Virus record (IMG/VR): IMGVR_UViG_3300006923_000064
Coordinates: 1-37,874 of that record
From: a virus
Reading direction: 5' to 3' (one strand)
Length of the DNA: 37,874 nt
A model generated the notes under the pieces. That model had not been told where the DNA came from. It ran no database searches and saw only the letters and a list, made by a program, of their open reading frames with translations. Of the stretch, positions 1 through 23,683 are shown piece by piece (within the stretch, counting starts at the first letter, position 1; the number at the start of each line of letters is the position of its first letter). The translations under genes and the position numbers were made by a program.

Positions 1-3000
1 ATATTCACAATCGCTTCCCGATCCGACTCAGACGTTGCTCCCATGAGAAGCACTCTATCTCTCACATAATATGTTTCATAACTAATTACCACCGGCGCAC
101 CCGTGCTTCCGGGATAAGATCCACATACATGTTGACACGAATGGGCTCCGAGTTCATCACAACTACTAGTACACATTCTAGATACATCACATATAGGATA
201 TCCCCAAGTAGTACCATCCCATCTAATATACCAATCGCTCGGATTATTATTAACATCACTCAATACGGGATTGTTTGGTAAAACACAAGAATCGCACAAA
301 TCAGCAGAAAAGCCTCTGGTGATGTGTCTCGGTTTACATTCCGTATGTCCGGTACAATCTATCATTTTAACAGAATTGTCCCAATCTCTTGTGTATATGG
401 AAACATCTTCACTTACTGCTCCCAGTAAGCCCAGACATTCACATGATGGATCAACAGCACTCGTGTCAGGCGGACCCACACCAGAATATATATTTTCATA
501 ATCGCAAATCCACAACGACCCCAACCCTTCTTTTCTTACTAGGCTGTTACATTTACTATTAAAATTAGATTGGCAATAACCCGCATCTGGACAATCTACC
601 TTAGATTCTCCTATAGGACAATTTGAATAAAAATTGTTCCTATACGCACCACCACCCCATCTAGAAATATTTACATATTTGAACAAATCATAATTGCAAT
701 ATCCCTCATCCGAGGGGACTTCAATTGCATCGTTCTCTTCGTCCCACTCAATAACACCTAATGGACATCTCCAAATTTCACTTTTACACGGACAATCTTC
801 ATTGTCGCTAAGTTTTGGTCGTGTGTCAAAAATATAATCTGGTAGCGTGGAATCAGAATCATAACGACTAGAATATTCACCATTGAGAATCTTAGTTGGC
901 GTACCAGCAGTGTATGTTCTACTCAAATTTGCTGGTATGGTCGCACCCAATGCGGACTTTGCATCATCATTAATTAAAGTAGATAAACCATGCACAGGAA
1001 TTCCAACATAATCAAACGAATAACTATCATCTACTGTATGATAAGCGAAATCATATTTGTTAATAAATTCAACACCACTTCTTTTAAGTGTGTTATATGG
1101 TCGCCAATCTGTTGTTGTTCCATGGTCACCTGGAATCTGTGCAAAACAATAACCAGTACAACCTGCTAAATATTCGGGCGACTGATCAGTAAATCCTCCA
1201 GAATCATATGTCCAACCATAATGACCAGAACCCTTTCCCAAGGCATTTGATTTACAATCTACTTCACTATCCGCATCTACTAAAGATGGTGATGATGCAG
1301 TTTTTGATTGGTCGTATGTGCAATACAAGCATCGATTTATTGAAGGTTCTTCACAATTGATGTCATTACACGCTAATCCCCCATACCAAGTACCATTTGT
1401 GCATTCGTTTTCAATCGTTTCAATACACATACCATTCGTACAACAAGCACCAACAAACGAATCTGGATCACATGATGTTTCTGGAATGCATTGTGTTTCT
1501 GTACATGCTTTATTATCCCCATAATAATAACCATCCAATATATCACAAACAAATTCTGGAACGTTTATACATTCCTTCACATGGTCACCATCACCATCCT
1601 CTAAACATAAACAACATGCACCACACGGATAGTTCGGTCCCCCAACCAAAGAGCATCCCGATTCTTCGTCTTCAACCCTGTCTTCACACGTTAGCGTCTC
1701 TTCGAATACACCAAATATGCTATTACAATAATCTTCTGTTACATTGTTGTTACAATAAGGTCCAATAGGAGTGCAATATGTGTCGGGTACATCATAACAA
1801 CACGAACCCAAAACAAATCCTCCACCGCCAGCGCATATTGTTGGGTCGCTTATTTCTCTGTCTGCACAACTATCCTGTGATGGCGTTCCGCCAATATCTT
1901 GACATATAAAGGGATCCATTTCAGAACAATTCCCACCAATACAACATGTATATGGCGGATTAAAACCAGTTTCACAATCTTCTCGCTCCTCGCAAGAATT
2001 CACAGACCAGTTGCTGTTGTCAAATTGAGAGCATGTTAATTCGCTAGTGTCGTCTATACATGTTGTATATTCCCCCCAAGTAGGATCATCGATTGTATAA
2101 CAACACGAAGCATAATCGGGCACTTCACACGCATATTGTGAATTGCAACTTATGTTCCAATCGTTGCAGTTGGTATCACTTCCTTGATATTCTCCATTTA
2201 GGAAAATGCAGATTTCTTCTGGTATATTATCAAAACATGTTGAGATATAATTCGGTTCTCCGTCCGTACCATAGTTAATACAAGAACAACATGCACCAAA
2301 CTCAGAACCTGGACCAGTAAGGTTTCCACAACCAGGGGTGTTCAATGATTGCAATTCTTCACACGTTGTGGTGGTGTTCCAATCACCTTCTAATACACCA
2401 CAACTCTCTTCTGTGATATCTAAACAATAGTTTGTTCCATCATAATTATAGCAACAAGAACCTCTATCTGGACCAATAATAGGATCACAATCAAAAATGT
2501 CGCAGGGGTCATTGTCGCATGTAGTATTGTCTCCAAAGTAATGACCGCCTAATATATTACAAAATACTTCATTTACAACTTGACATTGTGCAGGTTGACC
2601 TTGTTCTAAGCAGTAACAACAGGCTCCCTTTAACCCGGGAGAAACTTCACCGCATGGTTCATCGTCGCATGGAGGGTTGAATATATTACAATCTCCCCCA
2701 GACAGATGACAAAGAATACATGAAATGTCTTCTTCACAATAATTAACACCTTCTACGTTATAGCAACAGGTTCCATTTCGGTCTGGTGCGTCTGTGCAAT
2801 CACTATTGACACAAAGGGTTCTTGGATTTACCATCCCTTCAATTTTCTGAGTGCATGTCATATAATCAGTATCATAACATATCTGAGATGTAACACAACA
2901 CGACCTATCTGCTAATCCACCAATACAATGATAATAAGGAGGACCATCAACATTTTCTCCATCTTGATTTGGAAAATAAATATTTCTACCATATCCTATA

Positions 3001-5495
3001 GAGCAATTTGGTTTGTATGTTCCAATAAATGTTCCTTCGATTTCATTGTCGGGGAACGGATTAATCGAAGTTGCAACTGCTCCTATTGGTAATAGTTTCC
3101 ATGCATCTAATCCCGTTGTTATTCGTCTGTACAACAAGTTCTTCATATTGTTGAATGGTGGATTTATTGGGTCGTAGTTGGATTCTGACAAACTAATAAC
3201 TTCACCGAAATTTGTTCCGGACACCTGTTGCATAAACCAATAATGTGGTTGACCTTCTGCTTCTGATGTATTATACCAATAGGTAGATGTTGGAATTATA
3301 ATATCAGACTCATCATAACCAAGAAGAATAGAAAAGTCCTTGTTCCATATCTTCCTTTGACCAACCAAGAACGACACTTCATCTTTGGACGGGACGTACC
3401 AAGTGATACCATTATCTCTTTGGAATTCTGAGACAAATTCTCTAGCGTATTTAAATATAGTATAGTCGCCAGATATTCCAGACAACGGATCAGACAACCA
3501 TGGGTTGTCTTCTGGGTCAGTATAACCATCTGGATAATCACCATAATAAGTGGTGAGCCACCCATCATTTCTGTTCATAATATAGTCAGCATAGTTTGTG
3601 TGTGTTGGTTCTCTTGGAGGCAATTGAATACCATCAGTTGTTGATCCATCAATTACAACAATTCCCCACTCGGGGTAGTCAAACGTCATACCGTCTAATG
3701 TAAAAGTATCCTCACACAGACACACAGGAAGACCTTGACCATCTTCACAATCTATACTGGTACATACTTGATTTGGATAGAATGAGCAACCACTCTCGGC
3801 ACATTCTTCAAATTCAACAAAGTCTGCACAATTAGTATCACAGCAACAAGCACCAGTTAGAGTGTTTGGATTATCTTCACAACACCTAATACCTGCATCA
3901 TTAAGACTACTAGAACACTCAGAACCAATTCCATAAAATATGCCCCCAATATCTTGACATTCGTTTGCAACAACTTCATAACATTGATTACTCACACAAC
4001 ATGCACCCTTTGCTGCTACTTGACAACAATCAAAATTAGAACAAGAGGTTAAATCACCATTATAGATACCTTCCATTGCATTGCAAAAATCTCTAGTCAC
4101 CATATCAACACAAGATCCATATGGTGTGCAGCACGATCCGTGTGGGTCTAGTGTTCCACATATTGGAACACATGATATATCTTCGCAAGAATATCCATAG
4201 TAAAATAAGCCCCCATACTTCAAACAATCATATCTGTTGGCAACATGCACACATGTGTCATTCGTGCAACATGCACCACCAGAAAATTCTATACCCCCAC
4301 TTTTACCCCCACACGCTCTGGATTGACATGTAACATCAGGAACAAACGAACCACCCAGCAATTCGCAGTGAGGTTTTGACACATATTCTTTACAATAATA
4401 AACATTTTCATAATATACCATTGGTTCTAAAGACGAAGAGGGAGGTGATCGGTGGGGAAATGGCAATGATGACGGATCTACTATTTCATCTGGTTTGACC
4501 CAATCTACTCTCTCTTCAACGACAGGATAACAACAAGAACCAACTGAAACTTCATCATAATCAATGTTATATGGTGTTGTTGGTTCTGTACAATACCATT
4601 CATTTCCGTTACTAGTGGAGAAGCAATTTATTATACTGATGGTGTTTTTTTCAAATGTTGTATCACTATTCCACCCACCAGTAAATGAAGAGGGAACGTT
4701 AAACGAAGTTTCCAAATTTTCTTCACTAGTATCTAATACAAATGTAACAGAAAATAAATTTGAATATTCATCTGGATTTGGATTCTCTTCTGGCAGAGAC
4801 ATATTTGTTATTAAGTTTAAAACACTCTTAATGTTTTCTTTATTGATATAAAAAATATTAGCGTCTGAAATATCAAACGTTTCTCCGCCGTCTTCCGAAT
4901 AAACACTTTTTATGACGTTGGTGTGGTTTTTAAATGTTAAGGAAATTGTGTTTGAATTGTATGTGTTTCCTACGTTGTCATAGTATGTTCCGGTTGCTCC
5001 TCTTGCAGAATAAAGAGAATCAGAAACTCCTTTTATATAAATCAACTCATTCACAGAACCCGCGAGAACAGAAGATGTCCCACCAGATTCATCAGATGAA
5101 ACTATCAAATCTGTTCCTGATTGTGTTATTGTGAAGTCATCAGAAAAGGTCAATCCCATAAAAGATAAAGTGCTTCCGGATACACCATGCGAAGCATTGC
5201 TTAAAAACGTGTAGCCACTACCAATAAATTCATAATGTGCAGTTCCCGTCATTCCCGTAGGTCCACATACACCTACAGGAAGTTCAAATGTTGTTCCGTC
5301 CGTCAGAACTATACTTAAAGTATATCCACCATATGTCTCACCAGTTCCGTCAGCATATGAGACACCAATACCATCCATTATTGGTCCGGTCGGTCCTGTG
5401 CTTCCAGTTGGTCCTGTTGGTCCGGTGGGTCCAGTATATCCGTGTGGGCCTTGTGATCCCGATGGACCGTATGACGAATAGACGCTGTTTGTCAT
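1..5495 (-). CDS. Giant cysteine-repeat tail fibre / adhesin, collagen-like N-terminus (3' end beyond window)
   Basis: An uninterrupted frame runs from an ATG at 5495 to the left edge (1831 codons, no stop), so the C-terminus is missing. AGGGG lies about 11 nt before the ATG. Residues 10-38 are Gly-X-Y triplets, mostly Gly-Pro-Thr. Residues about 40-310 look like beta-structured fibre. From about residue 318 to 1390 there are about fifteen modules of 40-60 residues, each opening with Gly-(Ala/Ser/Thr)-Cys-Cys and ending in a Tyr/Phe-Gly-rich turn and spaced Cys. They are interrupted at about 590-830 by a domain resembling DUF1566/Lcl_C (WYVPSKDEV, then TYWYNTSEAEG). The last 440 residues are again Cys- and aromatic-rich. 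Similar CC modules occur in large secreted bacterial proteins, as I recall. As last gene of the fibre train it is most likely a receptor-binding or host-surface fibre. That role is inferred. Confidence 0.8.
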   Translation of the reverse strand, partial: MTNSVYSSYGPSGSQGPHGYTGPTGPTGPTGSTGPTGPIMDGIGVSYADGTGETYGGYTLSIVLTDGTTFELPVGVCGPTGMTGTAHYEFIGSGYTFLSNASHGVSGSTLSFMGLTFSDDFTITQSGTDLIVSSDESGGTSSVLAGSVNELIYIKGVSDSLYSARGATGTYYDNVGNTYNSNTISLTFKNHTNVIKSVYSEDGGETFDISDANIFYINKENIKSVLNLITNMSLPEENPNPDEYSNLFSVTFVLDTSEENLETSFNVPSSFTGGWNSDTTFEKNTISIINCFSTSNGNEWYCTEPTTPYNIDYDEVSVGSCCYPVVEERVDWVKPDEIVDPSSLPFPHRSPPSSSLEPMVYYENVYYCKEYVSKPHCELLGGSFVPDVTCQSRACGGKSGGIEFSGGACCTNDTCVHVANRYDCLKYGGLFYYGYSCEDISCVPICGTLDPHGSCCTPYGSCVDMVTRDFCNAMEGIYNGDLTSCSNFDCCQVAAKGACCVSNQCYEVVANECQDIGGIFYGIGSECSSSLNDAGIRCCEDNPNTLTGACCCDTNCADFVEFEECAESGCSFYPNQVCTSIDCEDGQGLPVCLCEDTFTLDGMTFDYPEWGIVVIDGSTTDGIQLPPREPTHTNYADYIMNRNDGWLTTYYGDYPDGYTDPEDNPWLSDPLSGISGDYTIFKYAREFVSEFQRDNGITWYVPSKDEVSFLVGQRKIWNKDFSILLGYDESDIIIPTSTYWYNTSEAEGQPHYWFMQQVSGTNFGEVISLSESNYDPINPPFNNMKNLLYRRITTGLDAWKLLPIGAVATSINPFPDNEIEGTFIGTYKPNCSIGYGRNIYFPNQDGENVDGPPYYHCIGGLADRSCCVTSQICYDTDYMTCTQKIEGMVNPRTLCVNSDCTDAPDRNGTCCYNVEGVNYCEEDISCILCHLSGGDCNIFNPPCDDEPCGEVSPGLKGACCYCLEQGQPAQCQVVNEVFCNILGGHYFGDNTTCDNDPCDIFDCDPIIGPDRGSCCYNYDGTNYCLDITEESCGVLEGDWNTTTTCEELQSLNTPGCGNLTGPGSEFGACCSCINYGTDGEPNYISTCFDNIPEEICIFLNGEYQGSDTNCNDWNISCNSQYACEVPDYASCCYTIDDPTWGEYTTCIDDTSELTCSQFDNSNWSVNSCEEREDCETGFNPPYTCCIGGNCSEMDPFICQDIGGTPSQDSCADREISDPTICAGGGGFVLGSCCYDVPDTYCTPIGPYCNNNVTEDYCNSIFGVFEETLTCEDRVEDEESGCSLVGGPNYPCGACCLCLEDGDGDHVKECINVPEFVCDILDGYYYGDNKACTETQCIPETSCDPDSFVGACCTNGMCIETIENECTNGTWYGGLACNDINCEEPSINRCLYCTYDQSKTASSPSLVDADSEVDCKSNALGKGSGHYGWTYDSGGFTDQSPEYLAGCTGYCFAQIPGDHGTTTDWRPYNTLKRSGVEFINKYDFAYHTVDDSYSFDYVGIPVHGLSTLINDDAKSALGATIPANLSRTYTAGTPTKILNGEYSSRYDSDSTLPDYIFDTRPKLSDNEDCPCKSEIWRCPLGVIEWDEENDAIEVPSDEGYCNYDLFKYVNISRWGGGAYRNNFYSNCPIGESKVDCPDAGYCQSNFNSKCNSLVRKEGLGSLWICDYENIYSGVGPPDTSAVDPSCECLGLLGAVSEDVSIYTRDWDNSVKMIDCTGHTECKPRHITRGFSADLCDSCVLPNNPVLSDVNNNPSDWYIRWDGTTWGYPICDVSRMCTSSCDELGAHSCQHVCGSYPGSTGAPVVISYETYYVRDRVLLMGATSESDREAIVN
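1440..4540 (-). repeat. Cys-Cys protein repeat array, interrupted by a DUF1566-like domain
   Basis: Module heads (Gly/Ala/Ser then Cys-Cys, on the plus strand seen as acaaca) lie near 4530, 4285, 4132, 4000, 3850, 2900, 2770, 2620, 2455, 2290, 2100, 1945, 1798, 1612 and 1450. Spacing varies from about 130 to 190 nt, and the DNA between heads has diverged, so this is an old protein-level repeat and not a recent DNA tandem. A typical module reads GACC, then a Cys after 3-12 residues, a Thr/Glu-rich stretch, Cys, a Gly-Tyr/Phe-(Tyr)-Gly turn, and Cys-x(4-6)-Cys. The gap between 3720 and 3020 holds the DUF1566-like domain. Confidence 0.8.
5382..5468 (-). repeat. Collagen-like Gly-X-Y tract in the giant fibre
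   Basis: This encodes residues 10-38 of the giant cysteine-repeat protein: about ten Gly-X-Y triplets, predominantly Gly-Pro-Thr. Such tracts form triple helices in phage fibres, which fits a homotrimeric shaft. The GGTCC-type DNA repeats closely resemble those at 6463-6570 in the preceding gene. Confidence 0.85.
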
Positions 5496-5511
5496 AATCA
5501 AGATTCCCCTA

Positions 5512-6603
5512 CTAGAATGGATTTTCTATATCATACGTTTTAGGTATTAATCCATACCAAATTAACTTTCCATCCTCATTTATTTTTCCATTAGTCACAA
5601 AATGGAAATAGTTCACACTACTATTTATATGAGGTTTTATGTCATATGGAAAAATCCAGTTGTCGGGCCAAATTTCAGACGCATTATCAAAACTAAATCC
5701 ACTTCTTTCCCCTCTGGAATTTCCTTCAAGAATTTTTATAGTAAACCCAAGAGAACTATCCTTTCCAAAATGATAATTAAAATTAAGATTGTCCCCGGTT
5801 GGAGAGTTATCTGCAAATTTAACAAACGGATATCCCAACTCTTCCGGCGGAGAACCAGTAACCTTTTCTTTGATTTGATTGGGATCAACTACCCAAACAT
5901 TACCCCAACTCTTTTCTGAATCAAGAGTTTTTCCTAAAGCATAATGGGTGAGTCGTGTGGTTGGAGTTGTGTCAAAACAATAAAGCATTGTTTCGCTGTC
6001 TACTGGACCCGTCATGTCTGCGGTGCCTAGGGAATATGCAACTTCATAATACGACCTAACTTTAGCACCGACAGTTTGTGTTTCAGGATCATAAAACGTT
6101 CCAGTCGCACCTGCTATTTCTTGTCCGTCTGTATATACTCCGAGTTCACCGGTATTACCACCGGTTGCTAAAAATCCATCGTATGTATCAAATGATATTT
6201 CTAATGTTGTATTATCGTCTGAGGGTTTTATTGTAACTCCACCATGAGGAACAAGAGTTCGTAAACGTATTGCTTCCGATGCAGTATTAATACCATCGAC
6301 TACTGGGATTCCTGTATTGTGTAAACTTTGTGCTTCTGTTATCTCAATATATGAAATACCAGTCGGTCCCCTAAACACCCCACCATCAAAAGTTTGTCCG
6401 TTGTCATATTCGGTCACAATATGAGTTGCACCGACAATATAACTTAACGTAAACCCAGAAATGGAAGGACCAGTAGGTCCGGTGGGACCGGTGGGTCCAG
6501 TAAGACCAGTTGGACCCGATTCGCCTGTGGGTCCAGTAGGTCCAGTGGGTCCAGATGGTCCCCGTTCTCCTACTAGAAATTGATGGGAACTATAATAAAC
6601 CAT
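5512..6603 (-). CDS. Collagen-like tail fibre protein
   Basis: A 363-residue protein. Residues 12-47 are about eleven Gly-X-Y triplets ([16 protein letters not shown] and similar), which suggests a trimeric collagen-like shaft. The rest is Gly/Thr/Asp-rich and looks like beta-structured fibre with no recognised enzymatic motif. It is the paralogue by architecture of the giant gene that starts 16 nt after its stop. The ATG at 6603 lies 4 nt after the stop of the upstream collar fibre and lacks a clear Shine-Dalgarno, so translation is probably coupled to that gene. The likely role is a baseplate-attached fibre or a chaperone-like partner of the next fibre. Function beyond 'virion fibre' is not readable. 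Confidence 0.75.
6463..6570 (-). repeat. Collagen-like Gly-X-Y tract
   Basis: This encodes residues 12-47 of the 363-residue fibre: about eleven uninterrupted Gly-X-Y triplets, mostly Gly-Pro-Thr. The DNA is a near-tandem 9-nt repeat and shares short identical stretches with the tract at 5382-5468. Confidence 0.9.
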
Positions 6604-6607
6604 TGGA

Positions 6608-9600
6608 CTATGTTACTACTTTCAAGGTATCACCATCCAGATATACTGCACCTGTTGAAAGACCAGCAGAACTGCCTGGTAGGTTCTTTAACGTTAGTGG
6701 AGATTCACTTCCTGATATTGGAACACCATCATCCTGCAATCCATCTGCTGTAATTTTCATGAATGACATATCATCAACCATACCAATTGCAATATCATCA
6801 CTTACCCGTACGAGGTAGTAGACGGAGAAATATTTTGGTTCGTTTGTAATATACCCTGCTGTATAATAGTCGGGACCACGATGATCAAGTTGTTTCTCAG
6901 TATCTTCTCCCTCTCCCTTTCCATTGTCGTGAGAAGATGCCCAGTCTTCATCAATGCCCATTAGGGGATTGTACCACTGACCCGGAGTGCGAAGAACCCC
7001 AAACGTATCCGCCGAGTTACCAGCGTGGGGGGAGTATTGTGTGGATACACGATCTATAACCTGATAATCTCGATGGTTGTTGAACGTATCTTGTATTTTT
7101 TTATTAACCCCCATGTCCAAAGATTCACGGGGTGTCCATACGGTATCTGTAACAATACCGGGCGTATCGACTCTAGAATATCGATCTCGATTCCATGTCA
7201 TCATACCAACACGCCATTTTTGTCTTGTCATTTTTTCTGGATCGGGTACGCTCATATCACCATGCCAATTTGAGGTGGGAGAGGCACATTCATAATTCCA
7301 TTTCATGAACTCAATATTATTAAGAGCCCCAACGTTCTCCAACCACATTGAAGAATCATAGTACGGTATAATATATCCTGCCGTATTATAAAGACCATCG
7401 TCACCAAACACTAAACCCTGTGCTTGATATCCTCCCCAAGAACCGTGTGGCCCTTGCTTGGGTATTACTCTAAAGCCGTCGGAAGAATTCCATCGCGCTT
7501 GCTCATAACCCATTTTGTCCGTCTCATCGACCCTAGTCATCAACCTGTTGGTCAATGACAAATTAACGTGAAAATGTGCGCCTGGTCCACCATACGTGAT
7601 ACCATGGTCCGTTTCGGGGGGGAAATTTCCCCGGTACCACTTATCAGTACCAGCAAAGTATACGGGCCCGTAGTGTTGACCGCTAAAGATGTCATTAAAT
7701 TCATCAAACGTCACACCCTCAAAATTTGCAAATTCTCCGTCATCGTTTACATAAACGTTCCAGAAATATCCATCTGCATATGGATGCTTATATGTATAGG
7801 TAAGTGTATCATCCCAAATGTCAGGATCCGGCTCGAACCCGCCGTTAGTATATCTAGCACCAAAACAATTCCACGACCATTTGTCATCATGGGCTGCCGT
7901 GCATGTCCGATAACCCGTCCAATCATATGTACCTATAATGTTACCATGATATCCGTATGCAGTGGGATCTCCCATATATATTCCCCTTGAGACCTCGCCA
8001 GGATTGCCTGGTGAATTATCCCCGAACGGAATACCTTGATGTCCGTCTATTCCCTCTGAAAATGCAAATCCTGGATTAAACACAGACCAAGAAGGACGAT
8101 TTTTATTCATCCCCCAATCTGTTGTTGAAGCCTCATGTTTATTGTGTTTTTCATTGAAAAACCATTCTGTTTCACTATTGTCATAGGGGCCCCTATATGC
8201 CATATAACTTTCGCAACGGTCCCCGCCGTCCCCATAATATAAAATATACGAACCATAATATGGATCATGTATAGTAGTATTTTCTGCGTCATGACTCCAC
8301 CTGTCATCGGGATCCTGTGGGGTTTGTTTTCCGTCCGGCCATTCCCACTCATGTTGCGAATCGGTTCCACCTACCCTACCCACAGGACAATCACATGGAC
8401 TTGTACGATGGTCTACATTACTATTTGCATCTAAATCAGAATGTATATATTGATGAACGCCCAATTCCCTTAAATGATTTGCGTGATGCTTCAGTCCGTG
8501 TGATGCTGGAGATGAAACATGAGATACAGACAATAATTTTTGAGAATGCGTTCTATTTGTTCCTCCTCGTTGACCAATACTTTCATAGTTATCCATTACG
8601 TCATATGCATCTTTTTCTATAAAGTTGTCGTAATTTTCTCTTCCCCCCGCAATATCCGACAATTCACTAAAAGGAACCTTATCTGCCAACACATCATTTT
8701 GTGATAATGGTCCTTTTAAATATCTATCCCGAAGATCGGGCAGTGCAAGACCTATAATTTCAACACTACTAATTTTAGGTTTATTTGTATTGGTGTTTAT
8801 CATGTAAGATAAATATTTTCTATTAGCAACATATTGGTTGACATAAGACCCCTCTGCAGTAAAACTTCGTTCTCTAGTTGCAAACTCAAACGTATAACCA
8901 GAGCCGTATTCAGAAACACTTGCACCCATACCACCAACACGTTTGTTGAGTTCTCTATATGGCAATCCACGCGGGTCACCAAGAGTATTAATTTCTTTTG
9001 TTATCAAATAGGTACGAACACCCTCAGAATAATATTCAGTAGTTAATGGCTGGACAATGTTTTTATTTACATACGAAACAATTTCTCTTTCGTTATATGG
9101 TTTTGAATTGTCGTAATTTCTGGGTTTAAATTCTGCCTCTGGCGACATCTGCGGCAGTGGTTGCGTTGCATCCGTCCCGCGCCAATTAAATCCACCATCA
9201 CATGTGACGCAATCGGGTATCCTATTATAATTCGAATTATTTTTGAGTGTGTCCTGAAAATTAATTGCCAGTTCAGTAGTTAGGTTTCTGGTTGGCTCAC
9301 CAGCAGCATTTCCGAAATTAAGACTTCCGTAACCAGACTCTAGTTCTTGTACATAACTATTATAATCACCAGTTTTCATTTCATTTATAGACTTGACAAT
9401 CTGCAGAACTTCTTCGTCTGCGTTTTGAGTAACTTCCACGTTGTCATACCAGTCATTCCTCCCCAAAACATTGTCGTAAATAATTTCTGGTACATTGTCC
9501 GGTACATTCAAACCCCTATTATCTTGACGATATACTTTATTCCGTGCGTATTTCAACTCATTTTTCACATCTCTAATTGGAATAGGCAGCGATTCAGATA

Positions 9601-10708
9601 AGTGATAATTTGACATAAATGCAGAATTAATTTTATATCGTCTATCGTCCGATAAACCACTTGCGTATTGTTCTAATCTACCATGACAAGCACTCGCTGG
9701 TCCCCCCGTTTCGTGGTTTGGCCAAGAGCCATCGTCGAAGTGATACTGATTAGTGTGTCTGTCATGTACTTCTTGATTGTGTCCATATTTTTCAGCCCAT
9801 AATAATGCAGGCAAATCCAATTGATTATCTGGTGTAACTTCAACATCAATATACTGGCCCGACTCATTTATATTGATGATGTCTCCCTGTATAACATATA
9901 AAGCATCGTTGGTTTCTGAATAAGCATTCTTTCCAGGAAATTCTTGTCTAAATCTAGCACGACCAACTTCGCTGGTTCCTGTAATACCATCAAGACTTTC
10001 TGCAAGATCTTCTATGAACTCTGTAAAAGTGTCAGAATCATCTCCAGTAAGTCCGATTCTTACTTTATACCCAAATTTTCCACCAATATATCTATTATAT
10101 TCTGGGTATATAATAGGATCAATATACCCACCATTACACGATTGGAAACCAGAGGGAACATCACTCAAACTTCCCACATATGGAACAATAGATCCGATTG
10201 GAGAAATGTTCTGCAATCCGCCAATTGCATTTCCGCCGATTCTATTACCAATGTAATTCTTCACCATAGCATAATGTCTACCACCAATTACACCCATATC
10301 TACGAGCATAGGTTTAATGACATGACCAGATTCTCTGGGAGGAGTATCAGCAAGCAATCCAGCAGTAACACCACTTAAGAAATATACATCCGAGGTAACT
10401 TCGGAGGTAAGACCCGCAGCAGTACCAAAAGTAAAACCATCAACCGGAATTATACCAAAGGAAGTAAGGTAAATTCTGTCATCTTGTACTTCCCGCACAA
10501 CACCAACAACCTCAGAATTTTCTGCGGTATCTGCTTTTGCTAATGTGAAACCGGACGTTGAGGGAATACCTGTATCTTCGTATCTAAGAATATCACCTTT
10601 CTGATAATCGTGTCCCGCTTCAATAAATTCTAACGTTAATTGAGATCCACTAACAGACCCAACAATGTTAATTTTTGATTGTATTGAACTATTATTATTA
10701 CATGTCAT
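6608..10708 (-). CDS. Tail-collar fibre protein (gp12-like architecture), 1366 aa
   Basis: Residues about 16-155 form a beta module (ending [12 protein letters not shown]) that recurs in the neighbouring fibre gene. Residues 171-215 match the phage tail collar domain (PF07484): IGSIVPYVG, then [10 protein letters not shown] and a [13 protein letters not shown] end. A second collar-type segment ([13 protein letters not shown]) is near 655. A His-rich stretch follows at 720-760. Residues about 760-1250 are unusually rich in Trp, Tyr, His, Asp and Asn. A GAHFH motif near residue 1044 recalls the zinc-binding His-x-His of T4 gp12. The C-terminus ([20 protein letters not shown]) is a common end of phage virion proteins. 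AGGAG lies about 12 nt before the ATG. It is probably a short tail fibre or receptor-binding fibre, but is much longer than T4 gp12 (527 aa). Confidence 0.8.
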
Positions 10709-10722
10709 TTGTTATTTATCTC

Positions 10723-13350
10723 CTAAAGTTCCGCATCTGCTTCATAATGAAAAGTTAATATGTCTAATGGGACATATCCTTGCAACAATTTCACCATCAT
10801 TCCACCATCAGTACCGCCTATTGAATTTATTGAAGATTTGGTGTTCGTACTAATTCTTGACACCCCATTAAACCCCTTGGTTCCAGAAGCATTTTTCATA
10901 CTTCTATTTGCGGTTCTATTGAAACCCTGATTAATCTCTCCATTTGGACCCCACACCTTAACCGAAGGGTTGGTTCTCATTTTATGTGGGAACTTACAAA
11001 CAAACTCACTACTATTTGCTGCTACAATATCAAAGGAACTTGCATCCGCTTTTTGGGTATTTAATAATGTAACGGTGCCAGGATAACAATCTTTATTATA
11101 TGATGTCTGATAGTAATACTCACATTTTCTGAGTTCTTCATCTCTATCAATTTCGTTATAGAATACACTACCATCTCCATCTTCCAATTTAAATTGTGCC
11201 ACAGACAAAGTTCCAGCGTATTCGATTCCATTATCTTGATCGGTGAAATATACAGACATTGCACTATAAGCGTTGTTTGATGTTCCGGTTATTCCAGCAG
11301 GAGCAGCAAATGTTTTCTTATATTTTGTCCACGAAGTTGTTGGTGAAAACGTACCTAAATCAGTTCTGGTTTCTGCACTTCCATCAGCACTGCGAATAAA
11401 CGACACACCCATCGTTCCACCAGCAACAGAGCCTTTATGGTAAAAAGAAAAGGACATAACTCTATCACTAAATTTGGTGGAACCCTCAAGTCGTTGATCT
11501 ATTCGGTGATAATGTCCACTGGTAGATCCTGCTCCACCAGTCACAAATGCACCTTTTACATTTGCATAATAATCGGGGAACCCAGGAACTGAAGTTTGGT
11601 AATCATTAAACGATTGTTTCTGTATAGAGAAATCTCTAGTTGCTCCGCTCAACGAACCCGAAACGCACTTCCAACGATCTGCAAAATATTGATTTGCAGA
11701 TGACATCGCGGATCCCACACCATTTCCTCTTCTCCAATAATACAAACTACCGTTTGTTAGATAATTTTGCATCTTACCAGTGGTGTTAGTTGGAGTGGTT
11801 GCAGAATATGATGTCAGTTCTTCTGGTCTGTCATTTTGTACGCCCCCAACATGAACAACTGCATTACTTCCATCCAGAATAGTTGCAATGGGTTTCCAAT
11901 ATGGGTCGCCTCCCATGTTGTTGTAAAAATCTTCGGTGTCGCTTGTAAGACCACCGTCAAGCCCAAGAATGGCAGGACCATTATTTACATTAAAGTCTAC
12001 ATTATCGTTATTTGTGATGAGACCAGAAGTAATAATGGTGATTGTATTCGCAGCAGTATCTTCTACGCCAGCAATACCCAAAACACTTCTGGCATTTTCA
12101 TCTAATGCACTTGCTAACGTATAACCCGTTACATCTGTGGTTGAGCGAGAAATAACATCACCTGAAGTAAATCCATGTGTATTGTTAATTGCTATTCTAT
12201 GAGTATTGTAAACATCCGCAGTACCATATTCACCACCAGATGCCCCATAAAGTGCCACAATTGCACTATCTGGAACTATCACTTGACCTCGGAAATGGGC
12301 AAATATACCTGCGGTTTCTCCAACCGCATACATGACCGGTTTAGATACAACTTTATCATAAGACAAACCTAAACCAGAGGGTTGTGAAGAAGATAATGCT
12401 CCCTCGCCCGTGGTGGAGAGGTAATAAACACACCCAGGAGAAAGATCGGAAGTTCCAATAACACCAGAGAAATCTCCGTGAATTTCACCAGAGAAAGTAA
12501 CATCAAAATTGTCTTCGTCTAGAATTCGGGATACGAGTCCAATTACTTCTGCATTCTTTGGTTCATAATCACTACCATCACCCATAGTTGCACCTGCTAC
12601 AGATGAAACATAATTAGTACCATCAAAACGAATTGCAGTACCAAAAGTAAATCCGTGTGCTGTCTGATTTATTCTTTTGTGGTTTACACCACTTGTTATT
12701 TTAACCATCCCGTTACTAAGAACAGAGGCGAGTTGATCTCGGTTATGATTATATAAACGAATCTCATCGAAGGTGGTCCCAGCACTCATACCAACATCGG
12801 TTGTATACCCTTGTCCCGGTCCTGCAAATTCTAGATAGTTGTTTGTTTCGTTTGATCCAAATTGTAGTTTGGTTCCTATAGTAGAATCAAATCTAAGGTT
12901 CTGTTCTGTAAACCAATATCCATTTTGGTTAAGCCAATATGGTCCGCTAAATCCATTTAGAGAATAAGTCTCACCACCATCCGCTGTATAACCCCCAATA
13001 GACGGACCAATTACAATACCAGCGGTTGTTCCCATTATTACTGCTGGTGTTTCGTCTCGGTTAATGTTTAGTAATTCATTCTCAAAATAAACACCACCAG
13101 TAAACACAACATCTTGTGTGAATGTCACACCCTTATCGATTATATCATTAAGTTCTATATTCAGCATACCGCCTGCTATTTCGACGGTCGCCGTAACACC
13201 TCCTCTTTCAGCCGAGGCTATATCCAAATCATAAATCTTCAGATCGTTAAGTTTCTGAATGATATCAACGTTGGTTTTTTGCCGCCAGGACTCAAACGTA
13301 TGATTTATTTCAACGTCTTGGATATCATAGTTGTTATTTTCTACGCCCAT
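10723..13350 (-). CDS. Tail fibre protein with carbohydrate-binding-like C-terminal domain
   Basis: An 875-residue virion protein. Residues 1-80 are an attachment-like N-terminus with a short helix. Residues about 80-230 are Gly-rich beta fibre. Two copies of an HGF...G..I module follow at about 230-365 and 380-500 (AEVIGLVSRI in the first), related to the module at the start of the downstream collar fibre. From about 524 to the end is a domain seen in many tail fibres: an opening like NYLTNGSLYYWRRG, a DRW motif, a jelly-roll-like middle and a close with QFKLEDG then EELRKCEYYYQ. That domain is known as a carbohydrate-binding-like fibre tip. AAAGG lies 7 nt before the ATG. The gene follows a 38-bp gap holding a possible late promoter. 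Confidence 0.8.
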   Translation of the reverse strand: MGVENNNYDIQDVEINHTFESWRQKTNVDIIQKLNDLKIYDLDIASAERGGVTATVEIAGGMLNIELNDIIDKGVTFTQDVVFTGGVYFENELLNINRDETPAVIMGTTAGIVIGPSIGGYTADGGETYSLNGFSGPYWLNQNGYWFTEQNLRFDSTIGTKLQFGSNETNNYLEFAGPGQGYTTDVGMSAGTTFDEIRLYNHNRDQLASVLSNGMVKITSGVNHKRINQTAHGFTFGTAIRFDGTNYVSSVAGATMGDGSDYEPKNAEVIGLVSRILDEDNFDVTFSGEIHGDFSGVIGTSDLSPGCVYYLSTTGEGALSSSQPSGLGLSYDKVVSKPVMYAVGETAGIFAHFRGQVIVPDSAIVALYGASGGEYGTADVYNTHRIAINNTHGFTSGDVISRSTTDVTGYTLASALDENARSVLGIAGVEDTAANTITIITSGLITNNDNVDFNVNNGPAILGLDGGLTSDTEDFYNNMGGDPYWKPIATILDGSNAVVHVGGVQNDRPEELTSYSATTPTNTTGKMQNYLTNGSLYYWRRGNGVGSAMSSANQYFADRWKCVSGSLSGATRDFSIQKQSFNDYQTSVPGFPDYYANVKGAFVTGGAGSTSGHYHRIDQRLEGSTKFSDRVMSFSFYHKGSVAGGTMGVSFIRSADGSAETRTDLGTFSPTTSWTKYKKTFAAPAGITGTSNNAYSAMSVYFTDQDNGIEYAGTLSVAQFKLEDGDGSVFYNEIDRDEELRKCEYYYQTSYNKDCYPGTVTLLNTQKADASSFDIVAANSSEFVCKFPHKMRTNPSVKVWGPNGEINQGFNRTANRSMKNASGTKGFNGVSRISTNTKSSINSIGGTDGGMMVKLLQGYVPLDILTFHYEADAEL

Positions 13351-17790: not shown

Positions 17791-20700
17791 TCAGTATTGT
17801 AACGACCCAGTTGGTCCATCCGGAAGACCAACAAGAAGGGGATTGCCTGTATATTGGTCGTTGTTGCCAATATTTGGTGATTGACCTAATGCGCCAGGAG
17901 CATTTTGGAGTACCTTCACTATATCTATGGAAAGATAGTTTGCATATTGAATTTCAATATTACCAAATGACATCGCTTCTCCCAGCGTATAACCAGAATT
18001 TTCTGGAGATCCGCTTGGCCCTGTGGCGTGAGATGCCCATATGTTTGGGTGATTAAATATCATCCAGTAGTTATACCCGTAATATTGTGCAGTTTCATAT
18101 CCATAAGATGAACCCGCCGTTCCATACGGATAACTTAGATTGGAATGTGCGGTAAAACCATCTTCCGGAACCAATGCAAAGGTATTTCCGTTCCAGTTGT
18201 CTCCTGTTGCCATGGCATTATATCCTTCTGGATATAAATCTACTTCTTCTTGATTATATCGGAGATTTTGAATGGTATTAAATGTGTATGGGAGGTAATG
18301 TCCTACTATTCCAAGTTCAGTTGACACAATCTCACCTTCGTCCATTCCAGTTCCACCCAACACATCATCCAATCGGGCATTTCCGAAGAATTGCAGTCCA
18401 GCGGGATGCATCATTCTCCGATATGGAGTCTCATACGAGGAGAACAGAATAGGTGTTATTCCACCATCGTCCCCGCTAGAACCAACGGAAGCAATGTCTA
18501 TTAGGTATGAATAATCTTGCCAAACATTACTATCCTGAATGACTGCTCTACCACTCAATACTCTATCGTCTGGATTATCACCATACCCTAATGGTTCATA
18601 ATCAACGTCTTCTTCTTCGTTGTCACCATACGGAACAACAGATTCTGATTGTAAAATGTAAACATCGGGACTATAATTTTCTAATATGTTGCGTTTGGAA
18701 AACAGAAGTGTTCGTTTAGTTACAATCTCAGAATTTTCTTGTTGTGATTTATTTTCGTAAAGAGATGCACTTTGACTAAATTTTTCATCATAATAAGATA
18801 AAGAATCAAATGTATTTCTTGGAATGAATGTCCCATTTTCATCTTTTGTAAACAAGAAAGATATACCAGCATTATCATTACTGCCAGAGAATGAAGACTC
18901 CCCCCATGAGCAACCTACAACTAACGTCTTATCCTGTAGACTAACAGACCACCCAAACAAATCATCATCCTCCAACAAACTACTCGAATAAACATCATCG
19001 ATGTTTATTTTTTGACTGAAGTCCCAACTATCGGCTATTATATTATATTCATAGATAAAAATTGATCCCCGTTTGTTTGTTCCCGGTGCAACATTTGCGT
19101 TTGGATCTTGTTGTTCGTATGGACACCCTATTATTAAATTAACATCGTTCATCGAAACAGATCTACCGAAAAGAGAATCTGCATTTAATTCAAATCCCCC
19201 TATATCAGAGGAAAAATTACTTTGTATGTTTGAATGATAGTCCCATATACCGGTAGATTGGTTTTTTGTATATAAAAAGACTCGTCCACCAATATCAAGA
19301 GGACCAAATCTACTTTTAGTCGGAGCCGAAATCGCCATCCAAATATCTGTAGCCGATATTGAGTATCCAAAACTATCGTCTAATATATGCGATTTTGTTA
19401 TTGTTTGTTTATGAGTCAAATCAGAACCAGAAACATCATAGACATCGACTTTAGGCTCAACTAATGTTAGGTTTTCTTGTGGATGAGAACCACTCGAAAC
19501 AAACAATTCTGAAGAATTAGATTCTAATTTACAGCCGAAATATGATCTATCATATGTTGTCCCATAGGTGTGTCCGACATAACCTAATGAGGTGTTTAAT
19601 ATAACAACACGACCAGCATCTAATGTTTCGCCATGATTTGCTGTCGGGTATCCAACAAAAATATAATCACCATTTTTTTGTGGTGTTGGATTTAAATGAT
19701 CACTTACTAGTAAGTAAGTATCAGCATCATCCAATTCAACATAAAGACTATCAAGTTCATTATTATTTGTAATCTGATCGATGTTTCCATATGAATCAAA
19801 ACTGATTCCTAATAAGGTTTTAAACGGAGTTCCAAAATGTACCACATCTTGAGAAAAATCCAATATAGACAAATTATCAAACGACTTCATATTTACTTTA
19901 GTGAAGGCGGAATATTCTTTTATGTCGGGACATAACTCTGACATTTTAGTTAATGAATATTCGCTATTCCAATATAATTCATAACCAGAAATGCAAAATG
20001 GATCTTCAAAAACATCACACGGCGGCAATCCAAAATCGAATCTGCTTAGTGTTCTTTCTTGTATTGAATTATAATCAGTCAGGCTTTCCCAGTCACCCGT
20101 TGCACTCAATTTGTTTTGAATTTCATTAAGTTGATTTACAAATCGTTCGCCATGGGAATAAGCACCAACCAGGATGGGGGCATCGTCTTCTAGTCGTTGA
20201 ATAAAGTATGGCGAAGAGGAGTCTCCACCAACATATGTATGAGGATAATCGAAAGACGCTCCTATACCACTTTCAATAAAATCATCTAGATGATCCGGAT
20301 ACTGATTATACATGTATGCATAAAATTTACAATCATATAAATCGTCGGAACACCCGCCGAAGTTTAACGAAACAATACTAATTCTATGATCCTGATCACA
20401 TAAAAATGCTGGATATGATTGAATAACATCCTTTAAAATATCCTCGCCCAGTGATACGGGGGGTAAAAATAAAGGGAATTTAAAAGCGTCTATAATATTG
20501 TGGGATTCTTCTATGTCGTTGCAGGGTGCAGAAGGGCAATTGCCTGTGAATTCATATGTTCTGTTGATTTTATCTGATGATAATCCAAATGTCGTACCAC
20601 CAACATACTCGTCAGGATCATTGATGATATTTTGATCGGATGTTTCAGCGCACGGGCTGCATGAATAATCACCTGCATCATAACCTGCATCATTCAAATA

Positions 20701-21327
20701 ATCTTCCCAATTAAACGGACCATACACCTCGGTCCAGGACACCTTTGCTATAAACAATTGTCCGCCGAGACCAGATCCTTCCCAATGATGTGTCGCACTA
20801 TCTCCTAATTCCCACACATTTTCAATTAACGCCTTTTGAGTGAACACCAACCCACCATCACTCTGTATCATAAATTTAACAACGGTATCTCGGGGCCCAT
20901 ACACACCCCCATAGTGATTTATTCCTAATATAATGTTCGGAGAAATCAAAACATATCTGGGTCTACCACATTCGTTACCGCAACTTGCTAACCCATTTGG
21001 CACTTCTGGATTTGTTCTATTGTATTCTCTAACACATGACAAGTTTGGACGATAAATTGGAATCGTACCTGCTCCAGATACGCCAGAATAAAGTTCATCT
21101 TCGTAACTACCTATTTCTGAGTGTGGGTGGGAGCCGGTCGCTGGATCAAAATAATCTCCACCCAAATATAAATTTAAATTTACCCCCGAGGGGGTTACTC
21201 CATTCGCCGCATACAGATAATAATCATGTCTGTCTGGCCAATACCAGCCACCACTCACCCCAACTTTGTCGCTATAACCAGCGTCACTGCCAGGGTTGGT
21301 CACAGTAGTCTGAGAGAAGAATACCAT
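17791..21327 (-). CDS. gp7-like baseplate wedge protein, second part, with FG-GAP beta-propeller
   Basis: A 1178-residue protein. Residues about 550-860 contain at least four FG-GAP-type blades (FGYSISA, FGRSVSM, FGWSVSLQDKTLVVGC, each with a GGRVFLY/GSIFIYEY strand), so an integrin-like propeller is likely. Residues about 927-990 read DSNVWQDYSYLI, then RRMMHPAGLQFFG. This is the pattern seen near the C-terminus of T4 gp7 and its marine relatives. The first 540 residues are Cys- and aromatic-containing and unrecognised. The ATG at 21327 shares one base with the stop of the gp7-like gene before it (TGATG), typical of reinitiation. I read the two genes as one wedge protein split in two with a large insertion. 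A propeller-bearing tail protein unrelated to gp7 is the alternative. Confidence 0.7.
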   Translation of the reverse strand: MVFFSQTTVTNPGSDAGYSDKVGVSGGWYWPDRHDYYLYAANGVTPSGVNLNLYLGGDYFDPATGSHPHSEIGSYEDELYSGVSGAGTIPIYRPNLSCVREYNRTNPEVPNGLASCGNECGRPRYVLISPNIILGINHYGGVYGPRDTVVKFMIQSDGGLVFTQKALIENVWELGDSATHHWEGSGLGGQLFIAKVSWTEVYGPFNWEDYLNDAGYDAGDYSCSPCAETSDQNIINDPDEYVGGTTFGLSSDKINRTYEFTGNCPSAPCNDIEESHNIIDAFKFPLFLPPVSLGEDILKDVIQSYPAFLCDQDHRISIVSLNFGGCSDDLYDCKFYAYMYNQYPDHLDDFIESGIGASFDYPHTYVGGDSSSPYFIQRLEDDAPILVGAYSHGERFVNQLNEIQNKLSATGDWESLTDYNSIQERTLSRFDFGLPPCDVFEDPFCISGYELYWNSEYSLTKMSELCPDIKEYSAFTKVNMKSFDNLSILDFSQDVVHFGTPFKTLLGISFDSYGNIDQITNNNELDSLYVELDDADTYLLVSDHLNPTPQKNGDYIFVGYPTANHGETLDAGRVVILNTSLGYVGHTYGTTYDRSYFGCKLESNSSELFVSSGSHPQENLTLVEPKVDVYDVSGSDLTHKQTITKSHILDDSFGYSISATDIWMAISAPTKSRFGPLDIGGRVFLYTKNQSTGIWDYHSNIQSNFSSDIGGFELNADSLFGRSVSMNDVNLIIGCPYEQQDPNANVAPGTNKRGSIFIYEYNIIADSWDFSQKINIDDVYSSSLLEDDDLFGWSVSLQDKTLVVGCSWGESSFSGSNDNAGISFLFTKDENGTFIPRNTFDSLSYYDEKFSQSASLYENKSQQENSEIVTKRTLLFSKRNILENYSPDVYILQSESVVPYGDNEEEDVDYEPLGYGDNPDDRVLSGRAVIQDSNVWQDYSYLIDIASVGSSGDDGGITPILFSSYETPYRRMMHPAGLQFFGNARLDDVLGGTGMDEGEIVSTELGIVGHYLPYTFNTIQNLRYNQEEVDLYPEGYNAMATGDNWNGNTFALVPEDGFTAHSNLSYPYGTAGSSYGYETAQYYGYNYWMIFNHPNIWASHATGPSGSPENSGYTLGEAMSFGNIEIQYANYLSIDIVKVLQNAPGALGQSPNIGNNDQYTGNPLLVGLPDGPTGSLQY

Positions 21328-21932
21328 CAATTATCACTCCCAACATTCCAAACACCATCTGAAAATCTCAAGATTCTAGTCTTCGGTAAACTTAGTACGA
21401 CTTTGTTAGAGTTAGAACCAATTGGTGCAAACAAACTTCTGAAAAAGAAATTAATACCATCTTCAGTAGACTTTGATTGATATAATTCTCGCACATGCTT
21501 CAACAGCAATCGGATATTTATTATAGACTCAGATGGATCGGACCAATTCAACTTCAGGGACTCGGGATAATTTCGTGCCAGCATCTCTTTGTAGTATTTC
21601 AAGAATCTCTCTTCTGCCAAATCAATATCTCGCAAACTCATGAGACTGCTGATGTTATTCTCTTCGTGCAACCAATCATAAAACGATTTAATGAAGAATG
21701 TAAATTTGGGATATCGTTCTCTTATACCCGATGGAAGTGCCTCTTCCACAAAAAATTCAAATCTCTTCTTTCCGTACGTTACGTTTTCCTCTTCACCTTC
21801 TGTCAGTGATCGAGTAGTATATTCTTCCCCCAAAGGAAGTTCGGTATCTGTTCTAATGTCCTCATATATCTTTTGGATATTAGACTTTTGTGCAAGAGTT
21901 CCTAAATTATCTTCTGAAAATATAAACATCAT
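21327..21932 (-). CDS. gp7: gp7-like baseplate wedge protein, first part
   Basis: A 201-residue protein. Residues 72-130 (RYPKFTFFIKSFYDWLHEEN, then FLKYYKEMLARNYPES) and 150-195 (YQSKSTEDGINFFFRSLF, ILRFSDGVW) match the helical section of T4 gp7 that precedes its C-terminal domain, a pattern also present in P2-gpI-like tail proteins. T4 gp7 is 1032 residues, so this is only a slice of it. The C-terminal gp7 motif lies in the next gene. The start at 21932 overlaps the gp6 stop by ATGA; an adjacent ATG at 21929 is equally possible. It follows gp6 and precedes gp8, as in T4. Confidence 0.75.
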   Translation of the reverse strand: MMFIFSEDNLGTLAQKSNIQKIYEDIRTDTELPLGEEYTTRSLTEGEEENVTYGKKRFEFFVEEALPSGIRERYPKFTFFIKSFYDWLHEENNISSLMSLRDIDLAEERFLKYYKEMLARNYPESLKLNWSDPSESIINIRLLLKHVRELYQSKSTEDGINFFFRSLFAPIGSNSNKVVLSLPKTRILRFSDGVWNVGSDN

Positions 21933-23683
21933 ATTTCATCCATAATAATAACTTCAATGTCGTTTAACCAACCAGGTTCTCGATGAAACAATATGTTTCT
22001 CTTTGATGATATGTTGAGTGATTTGGGTTCAAAGTATATGTTGAATGTTTCCGTTGCGAATACATCTCGCAGATATATTACTCCTGTTTTATAATCATAC
22101 GTACCTATTGAATCTTCTAAAAGAACATCAGAACCATCTTCAACATACTTGTAAATATCAATTTGACCATCTGCACCATTCTTGATATAATAGACTGAGC
22201 CATCATTTGGGTATGACGAATGTGCAAATCTACTGGAGTATAGTGATTGACCTACTTCGTTCCTGACGTTTTGCTGATTTACCAATTCTTGACCAAAATC
22301 AAAGAGATAAGAACCAGAAGGAGATGATGGCCCACTGGATTGCACTAGTTGTAAGTAATACCCAATACCTACAATACCCGCATCCAAAGCAGTTATGTTG
22401 CTGTTTATGTTTTCATAAGACAAACTATCCCCCAACAATCCAAATGTGTGGTTCGCTGTAAGATATACTTTAATCAAATCTCTCAGTTCTTCTGAAGTTT
22501 TGGATGTAGCAAAATCATCGTAATCTACAACAAAATTCTTAAAATGCACTACGTTAATTTTTGGGTCAATATATTCTGGGAGTATAGACACGACGGATTT
22601 TTCTTTCAATGCTGATATAATTTCCTGAATGTCTATGTCAGAATCTTGCGTTGTGCTAACGAACACTCTACCATATCGGGGAGGATTGTTCTCTTCTCCT
22701 CCCCACACACTAATAGATGATATACTACGAAGATCATTTACTATTAAAGAATAATAATCAGTCTTGGTAACGGCACGATTTTGTGCTTGGAAAAATGCTG
22801 GAGCATATTTTTTAACATCTGCAACGGTGTCACCCCTAAATCCGCCCCGAGCAGATTTGATGGTAGAAACAGACAGACCATTCACTCCTTCAAATGATAC
22901 CAGACCATTATCAGAAGCACCATTACCACCTCGTAAATATTGAAGTTTTGTTGTTGATGTTGATGGGACACTCTTCCCAAACACACCATCACCAAAAGTA
23001 ATTTTATAATAACCGTCATATACTAAATCTACAAAGAAAATTCTATCATCACCCGTCAAACCAGAAACAATATTATCTGCTTGTGAGTATGCAATGTTAA
23101 TTCCGTTCTCCTCAACATAGACCCTCAATGTGCTAGTGTCAACATCTAAATCGCCTATTACTGTATTGTTTTGTTGGTTGAGTTGAGGATTGTCACTCTT
23201 GCTTCCATATATTTCAACATTAGCGGTTGTCCCGGCACCCATCGTGAATCCGTTTCCCCAATAAAACCAATTAGCATTTGATGCTTCTGCTATTTTGTGT
23301 CCCACTGGTACATCATATTCTCCACCTGCGGGTGCAGTTATTTCCACCTCTGCGACAGCACATCTCTTTGATTTGGGCACATATCCGAGCATCTTAGCAA
23401 TTGATGCAACATTATTTGGATTTGTCGCTGTGTCCAAAAACATTTCATTTGCTATCATGTTAGCATAGAACGAATAGTACATCGTGTTGTAAGACAGAAC
23501 ATCTAGAAGAACCGACAAAGCAGATCCATCAAAATCATAATCGGTAAATAAAGATTGTGTTTCTAGATACGACTTCAAACTAGATTTGATATCATTGAAA
23601 TCCAATTTAGTCAAATCAACATCCGACAAGTTAACAGGACTTGTTAGATTAGAATTAGATGGTGCTGTGTATTCTGTTGCCAT
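21929..23683 (-). CDS. gp6: Baseplate wedge subunit gp6 (baseplate J-like)
   Basis: gp6 forms the wedge backbone ring that holds the T4 baseplate together through sheath contraction. This 584-residue protein has the gp6/baseplate-J N-terminus: DYDFDGSALSVLLDVLSYNT (residues 48-67), YANMIANEMFLDTA (73-86) and the IAKMLGYVPKS segment (95-105). In the middle are FFVDLVYDGYYKITFGDGVFG and the RAVTKTDYYSLI motif of the family. Length is close to T4 gp6 (660). The ATG shares one base with the gp25 stop (TAATG), and GGGATAGG precedes it. gp25-gp6-gp7-gp8 is the canonical order. Confidence 0.92.
   Translation of the reverse strand: MATEYTAPSNSNLTSPVNLSDVDLTKLDFNDIKSSLKSYLETQSLFTDYDFDGSALSVLLDVLSYNTMYYSFYANMIANEMFLDTATNPNNVASIAKMLGYVPKSKRCAVAEVEITAPAGGEYDVPVGHKIAEASNANWFYWGNGFTMGAGTTANVEIYGSKSDNPQLNQQNNTVIGDLDVDTSTLRVYVEENGINIAYSQADNIVSGLTGDDRIFFVDLVYDGYYKITFGDGVFGKSVPSTSTTKLQYLRGGNGASDNGLVSFEGVNGLSVSTIKSARGGFRGDTVADVKKYAPAFFQAQNRAVTKTDYYSLIVNDLRSISSISVWGGEENNPPRYGRVFVSTTQDSDIDIQEIISALKEKSVVSILPEYIDPKINVVHFKNFVVDYDDFATSKTSEELRDLIKVYLTANHTFGLLGDSLSYENINSNITALDAGIVGIGYYLQLVQSSGPSSPSGSYLFDFGQELVNQQNVRNEVGQSLYSSRFAHSSYPNDGSVYYIKNGADGQIDIYKYVEDGSDVLLEDSIGTYDYKTGVIYLRDVFATETFNIYFEPKSLNISSKRNILFHREPGWLNDIEVIIMDEI

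Follow-up and report, generated by a model that had tools for sequence, protein, structure and literature searches.

Tandem GACC modules in a giant cysteine-rich protein encoded among the tail-fibre genes of a divergent T4-like phage

In the usual view, phage fibres fold in the reducing environment of the cell and owe their stability to coiled coils and trimers of beta structure. Collagen-like phage fibres and Lcl-type adhesins are both already known. Collagen-like tail fibres (phrog_5073, phrog_819, phrog_366) combine a Gly-X-Y stem with a place in a tail-fibre operon, and triple collagen repeats have been reported in pelagimyophages (PMC7029224). In the Legionella collagen-like adhesin Lcl, a collagen stem carries the Lcl_C domain (Lcl_C/DUF1566, PF07603) as a trimeric head that binds glycans (PMC11162425). 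A further point of comparison is the iRhom homology domain (IRHD) of human iRhom1 and iRhom2 (PDB 8snl, 9xy4, 9q7y), part of the ectodomain of a membrane pseudoprotease, in which all 16 cysteines are paired in eight disulfides and whose structure was reported as unprecedented (PMC11248996, PMC10148629).

The giant fibre-type protein described here has something in common with each of these. With the phage collagen-like fibres it shares the stem and the operon, but no GACC modules have been reported for them. Like Lcl, it carries a collagen-like stem and an Lcl_C-type domain in one chain; Lcl, however, is devoid of GACC modules and its head of disulfides, and the Lcl_C match in the giant fibre is weak. 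The IRHD contains a module, CC-x6-C-x7-C-x13-C-x4-C, with a spacing that also occurs among GACC modules, yet this module is single, whereas the fibre has tandem arrays and no rhomboid core. Neither the use of the GACC module to build phage fibres nor its link to iRhom turned up in the literature and family libraries that we searched.

A giant gene among baseplate and tail-fibre genes

The window analysed here is an entire IMG/VR record of 37,874 bases, and the giant gene runs off its left end. The gene lies on the minus strand (3..5495), starting with an ATG at 5495-5493 and remaining stop-free to base 3; the resulting 1831 codons lack the 3' end, which is cut by the end of the record. Direct reading of the sequence places a Shine-Dalgarno-like AGGGGA (5505..5510, minus strand) 9 nt before this ATG. 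The product contains 137 cysteines in 1831 residues (7.5%), compared to 0-1.4% in the remaining proteins of the window, and inspection by eye revealed no signal peptide. Searches with the whole protein retrieved no relative from IMG/VR, GenBank phages or the PDB.

A syntenic ortholog with an intact frame is present on IMGVR_UViG_3300025151_000299, in the same place and with the same neighbours, in a virus whose gp6 is 54% identical to that of the window. The two giant proteins are 45% identical over 1504 aligned residues, with 110 of 119 aligned cysteines (92%), 17 of 19 tryptophans and 105 of 144 glycines kept. When the cysteines were masked before alignment, 92 of 120 still fell opposite a cysteine, at 41% identity of the other residues. 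At the codon level, 41 of the 110 shared cysteines are written TGT in one gene and TGC in the other, and divergence is highest at third positions. Because so distant an ortholog retains nearly all aligned cysteines, we take both the frame and its cysteines to be real and constrained; judged from this comparison, the giant frame is translated and its cysteines are under selection. An assembly chimera or a chance open frame would fit with the contig end cutting the gene, but is already refuted by the intact ortholog, found with the same neighbours in a separate assembly, and we give this explanation practically no weight. The C-terminus is absent from both genes, since that of the ortholog is likewise truncated by its contig end, and a near-identical contig (IMGVR_UViG_3300008050_000342) already ends within the gene next to it.

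Several T4-type genes are found on the record, namely those for gp6, gp25, gp53, the tube cap, the tail tube and a gp32-like single-strand binding protein. The baseplate wedge protein gp6 (21929..23683, minus strand; phrog_219, 8e-107) is about 30-32% identical to its best matches, which come from cyanomyoviruses and Methylophilales phages, so we regard the virus as a divergent T4-like phage. After the baseplate genes, in the downstream direction and all on the minus strand, come a tail fibre protein (10723..13350; phrog_4492, 8e-30), a protein with a tail-collar/short-tail-fibre-like stretch (6608..10708; PHROG 1e-4, Pfam Collar 0.004), a short collagen-like tail-fibre protein (5512..6603) with 35% identity to the giant fibre's residues 9-180, and the giant gene itself. 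The latter is part of the baseplate/tail-fibre operon, with fibre genes directly adjacent. The baseplate cluster also encodes an 1179-residue protein with FG-GAP repeats (17791-21330, minus strand; Pfam 3e-11), relatives of which occur in two other viral loci, L083 and L099; by eye, its first half shows trypsin-like motifs, with no protease match in Pfam.

Domain order, the GACC module and its relation to iRhom

From its N-terminus, the giant fibre consists of a collagen-like Gly-X-Y stem (residues 10-37, bases 5385..5468; Pfam Collagen E=0.055, PHROG tail fibre families 1e-7), a domain judged by eye to be of beta type (residues 40-318, 4542..5378), GACC modules 1-5 (residues 319-583, 3747..4541), a cysteine-poor domain (residues 596-862, 2910..3710), GACC modules 6-15 (residues 864-1384, 1344..2906) and an incomplete C-terminal region (residues 1385-1831, 3..1343), all on the minus strand. 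The array is therefore not continuous, being split by the cysteine-poor domain. The beta-type domain is weakly related to the N-domains of other phage proteins with collagen and GACC modules (one hhalign comparison, probability 79%, E=1.6e-5). The C-terminal region contains cysteines but no GACC modules; its conservation in the ortholog extends to about residue 1595. Five full-length relatives (L325, L327, L029, L064, L102) have a short C-terminal motif in common, roughly LPxGxCxW..C...NCPYxxC.

The cysteine-poor domain is probably of the Lcl_C/DUF1566 type. It contains WYVPSKDE, a motif common to Lcl_C/DUF1566-like phage domains, and matches Pfam Lcl_C at E=0.21; short phage proteins that align with residues 596-862 match at 7e-5 and 2e-4. 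None of these reaches the Pfam cut-off of 34.9 bits, the giant fibre scoring 12.3 and the relatives 23.5 and 22.0. The AF2 model of residues 596-862 has a pLDDT of 30 and was unusable. A related domain of 420 residues forms the end of many GACC relatives. Some phages with GACC modules also encode stand-alone, 215-residue Lcl_C-like proteins (L065:6130-6783, L017:4191-4835, L035:10457-11101).

The giant fibre has 17 CC pairs, two of which (490, 538) close a module, leaving 15 modules that start at residues 319, 407, 453, 497, 548, 864, 908, 957, 1012, 1067, 1129, 1182, 1230, 1292 and 1349. A sequence-only reading of this DNA had proposed a giant fibre with about fifteen Cys-Cys modules of four to eight cysteines in a frame open for at least 1831 codons. 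Frame and module number were both borne out, and the intact frame and the 92% of aligned cysteines kept in the ortholog put the observation beyond chance; the cysteine counts are slightly higher than stated, with 6-8 in most modules, and the Lcl_C-like domain and the relation to iRhom had been missed.

The core of the module is an invariant CC-C-C-C, usually with GG after the fourth cysteine plus a sixth cysteine. The most frequent cysteine gaps are 5-7-13-4, with 6-7-13-4 occurring too, although these statistics are biased by the way the viral loci were picked, using a pattern that requires gaps of 5 and 7 plus GG. Segments between successive CC pairs mostly hold six cysteines, and the number is an even one in 317 of 338 segments from bacteria, 206 of 279 from viruses and 10 of 13 from the window. 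Three window modules have seven, so that one thiol would stay unpaired or modules would be bonded to each other. Composition is strongly acidic, the 788 residues of the window's module regions including 130 Asp+Glu, 23 Lys+Arg and 7 His.

No family in Pfam, NCBIfam or PHROG recognised the modules, and an alignment of the window modules alone was too diverse for scanning. We used a module HMM with seeds from viral and bacterial loci, among them window module 453; it detects the non-seed window modules 497 (6e-8) and 957 (4e-6), and several others weakly. An AF2 model of two window modules (90 aligned pairs) reached a pLDDT of 81.

When the all-module profile was compared with all PDB sequences, iRhom1 and iRhom2 were the sole matches up to E=1 (0.07). 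Four iRhom sequences also ranked first with a profile of bacterial modules only (0.04), and again with a viral profile made of one window module and 33 other viral modules (3.4e-4 to 9e-4, the next match being at 0.58). The module model points in the same direction: in Foldseek, iRhom2 and iRhom1 came first at an E of about 1, not significant alone, and VIA aligned window module 453 with iRhom1 597-639 over 42 residues at 1.9 Å and 29% identity, with a Z of 4.7, a value under 5 being insufficient on its own for a 42-residue module. Going by the printed sequences, profile and structure point to one and the same CC module of iRhom1. The relation rests on this agreement of profile and structure matches, none of which is strong by itself for so short a piece, and by both kinds of search the two iRhoms appear to be the only credible solved relative of the GACC modules. 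A Foldseek comparison of the module model with viral models gave no credible match.

The iRhom link offers a structural template for GACC proteins and a possible prokaryotic relative of the IRHD. More tentatively, and with rather less than even confidence, we consider that the GACC knot may be an ancient extracellular disulfide module that shares common descent with the planctomycete giant proteins described below and the eukaryotic IRHD, and that phage fibres would use as a tandem stiffener oxidised after lysis.

Distribution of the module in viruses and bacteria

The sequence-only reading knew of no described T4-like fibre with this design and had proposed a search of metagenomes. Indeed, the design has no match in 50,697 GenBank phage records, and we found no description of GACC fibres in the literature; it is nonetheless widespread in uncultivated viral contigs. 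Scanning IMG/VR with the pattern G[AS]CC-x5-C-x7-C-x3-GG at the DNA level yielded 105 matching stretches, and by the module profile 91 of the viral loci L003-L108 contain GACC modules. Collagen and GACC modules reside in one ORF in 46 uncultivated viral loci, 25 of which have window-like tail genes as well, and tandem sets of two or three collagen and GACC genes occur in several phages. An extreme relative (L325:4303-12147, minus strand) has collagen, GACC modules and 279 cysteines in 2615 residues. The gp6-like ORFs of L083 and L099 carry a pair of GACC modules as a C-terminal fusion (residues about 680-795); here the module forms part of a known virion protein.

Other combinations were seen along the way. 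The 2615-residue relative possibly includes a von Willebrand A domain (Pfam 0.08), and one protein in L064 has both GACC modules and FG-GAP repeats. A second cysteine-rich phage family, starting with MRTxKTCCCCGD, has GACC modules and lies beside T4-like baseplate genes (L025, L032, L033, L055).

In GTDB genomes, the same pattern matched at least 118 stretches; among the matches listed, 63 of 80 titles are Planctomycetota, mostly Phycisphaerae. One complete planctomycete chromosome has 78 pattern matches. The bacterial GACC proteins that we read have evident signal peptides, with as many as 20 modules detected in one of them. The earlier suggestion that the modules look like those of large extracellular bacterial proteins thus holds, in that one HMM is common to both and the carriers are mainly Phycisphaerae proteins with signal peptides. 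These secreted proteins of Phycisphaerae/Planctomycetota resemble the giant fibre in their long tandem arrays of the same module; they differ in their signal peptides, more regular six-cysteine modules and, in four examples, the lack of a collagen stem. In a phylum sample searched at 1e-10, modules turned up in 2 of 59 Planctomycetota, including the starting genome, and in 0 of 100 Pseudomonadota, indicating a patchy distribution. Acidovorax, Streptomyces and Aliifodinibius, which had appeared as carriers, were rejected as chance out-of-frame pattern matches, a whole-genome search having found no module.

Disulfides, metal and the role of the protein

We think it likely that the giant protein serves this divergent T4-like phage as a fibre for receptor binding or adhesion, stiffened by disulfides that form by oxidation after lysis. 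That it is of fibre type, as the sequence-only reading had it, is supported by the collagen stem and by the tail and baseplate genes around it. The N-terminal collagen-like stem, which is probably trimeric, would be attached in the baseplate/fibre region. About fifteen GACC knots of ~40-55 residues, probably with three disulfides each and the fold of the IRHD module, would form a stiff, protease-resistant, acidic spacer around the Lcl_C-like domain, for which surface polysaccharide is the probable ligand. Synthesis probably takes place in the cytoplasm with the cysteines reduced, and the bonds would most simply form after lysis, given that the protein lacks a signal and that a search of 12 viral records for DsbA gave no match. 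The missing DsbA at the same time weighs against the disulfide reading.

Clusters of the CC..C..C type are able to bind zinc, and the sequence-only reading had left the choice between disulfides and metal-bound knots open. Each GACC module is most likely a small knot held by three disulfides rather than a metal site, since the nearest solved relative, the IRHD, is fully disulfide-bonded and module cysteine counts are mostly even; bonding after lysis, which had also been suggested, we retain as a probable timing. Knots binding zinc or iron could fold in the reducing cytoplasm with no need for oxidation, which would suit virion assembly in a reducing cell and the odd cysteine number of three window modules, but the IRHD has disulfides only, bacterial GACC carriers are secreted, and the window's module regions are low in histidine (7 of 788 residues) and lysine, making metal quite unlikely. 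We also regard it as unlikely that the fibre imitates, or was captured from, a secreted surface protein of a host such as a member of the Phycisphaerae, and acts as a mimic or by associating with surface layers of the host that are built of the same module. The predominance of Planctomycetota among the cellular matches listed, the 78 matches in one complete genome and the secretion of the bacterial carriers speak for this reading; the patchiness of the module even in Planctomycetota, the position of the signal-less window protein among fibre genes and the presence of the module on the phage's own gp6 in L083 and L099 speak against it. That same gp6 fusion, together with the operon position, the missing signal peptide and the collagen stem that the adjacent tail-fibre ORF has too, renders it very improbable that the protein stays out of the virion and is made during infection, for instance for release at lysis or modification of the cell surface, as its great size and cysteine content might suggest.

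If the disulfide-stiffened fibre is the correct reading, a common class of uncultivated viral fibres stacks disulfide knots, a different way of building a long, tough, host-binding rod, and one that raises the question of when and how the bonds form. Hundreds of viral and planctomycete proteins are unreadable at present because no Pfam, NCBIfam or PHROG family matched the modules in our searches.

Thioredoxin-like matches in three contigs, considered as candidate oxidases, were rejected as being below cut-off. One of these belongs to a viral ORF (L331:1194-2633, plus strand) in which the thioredoxin-like domain is fused to glutamine synthetase (Gln-synt_C 9e-15).
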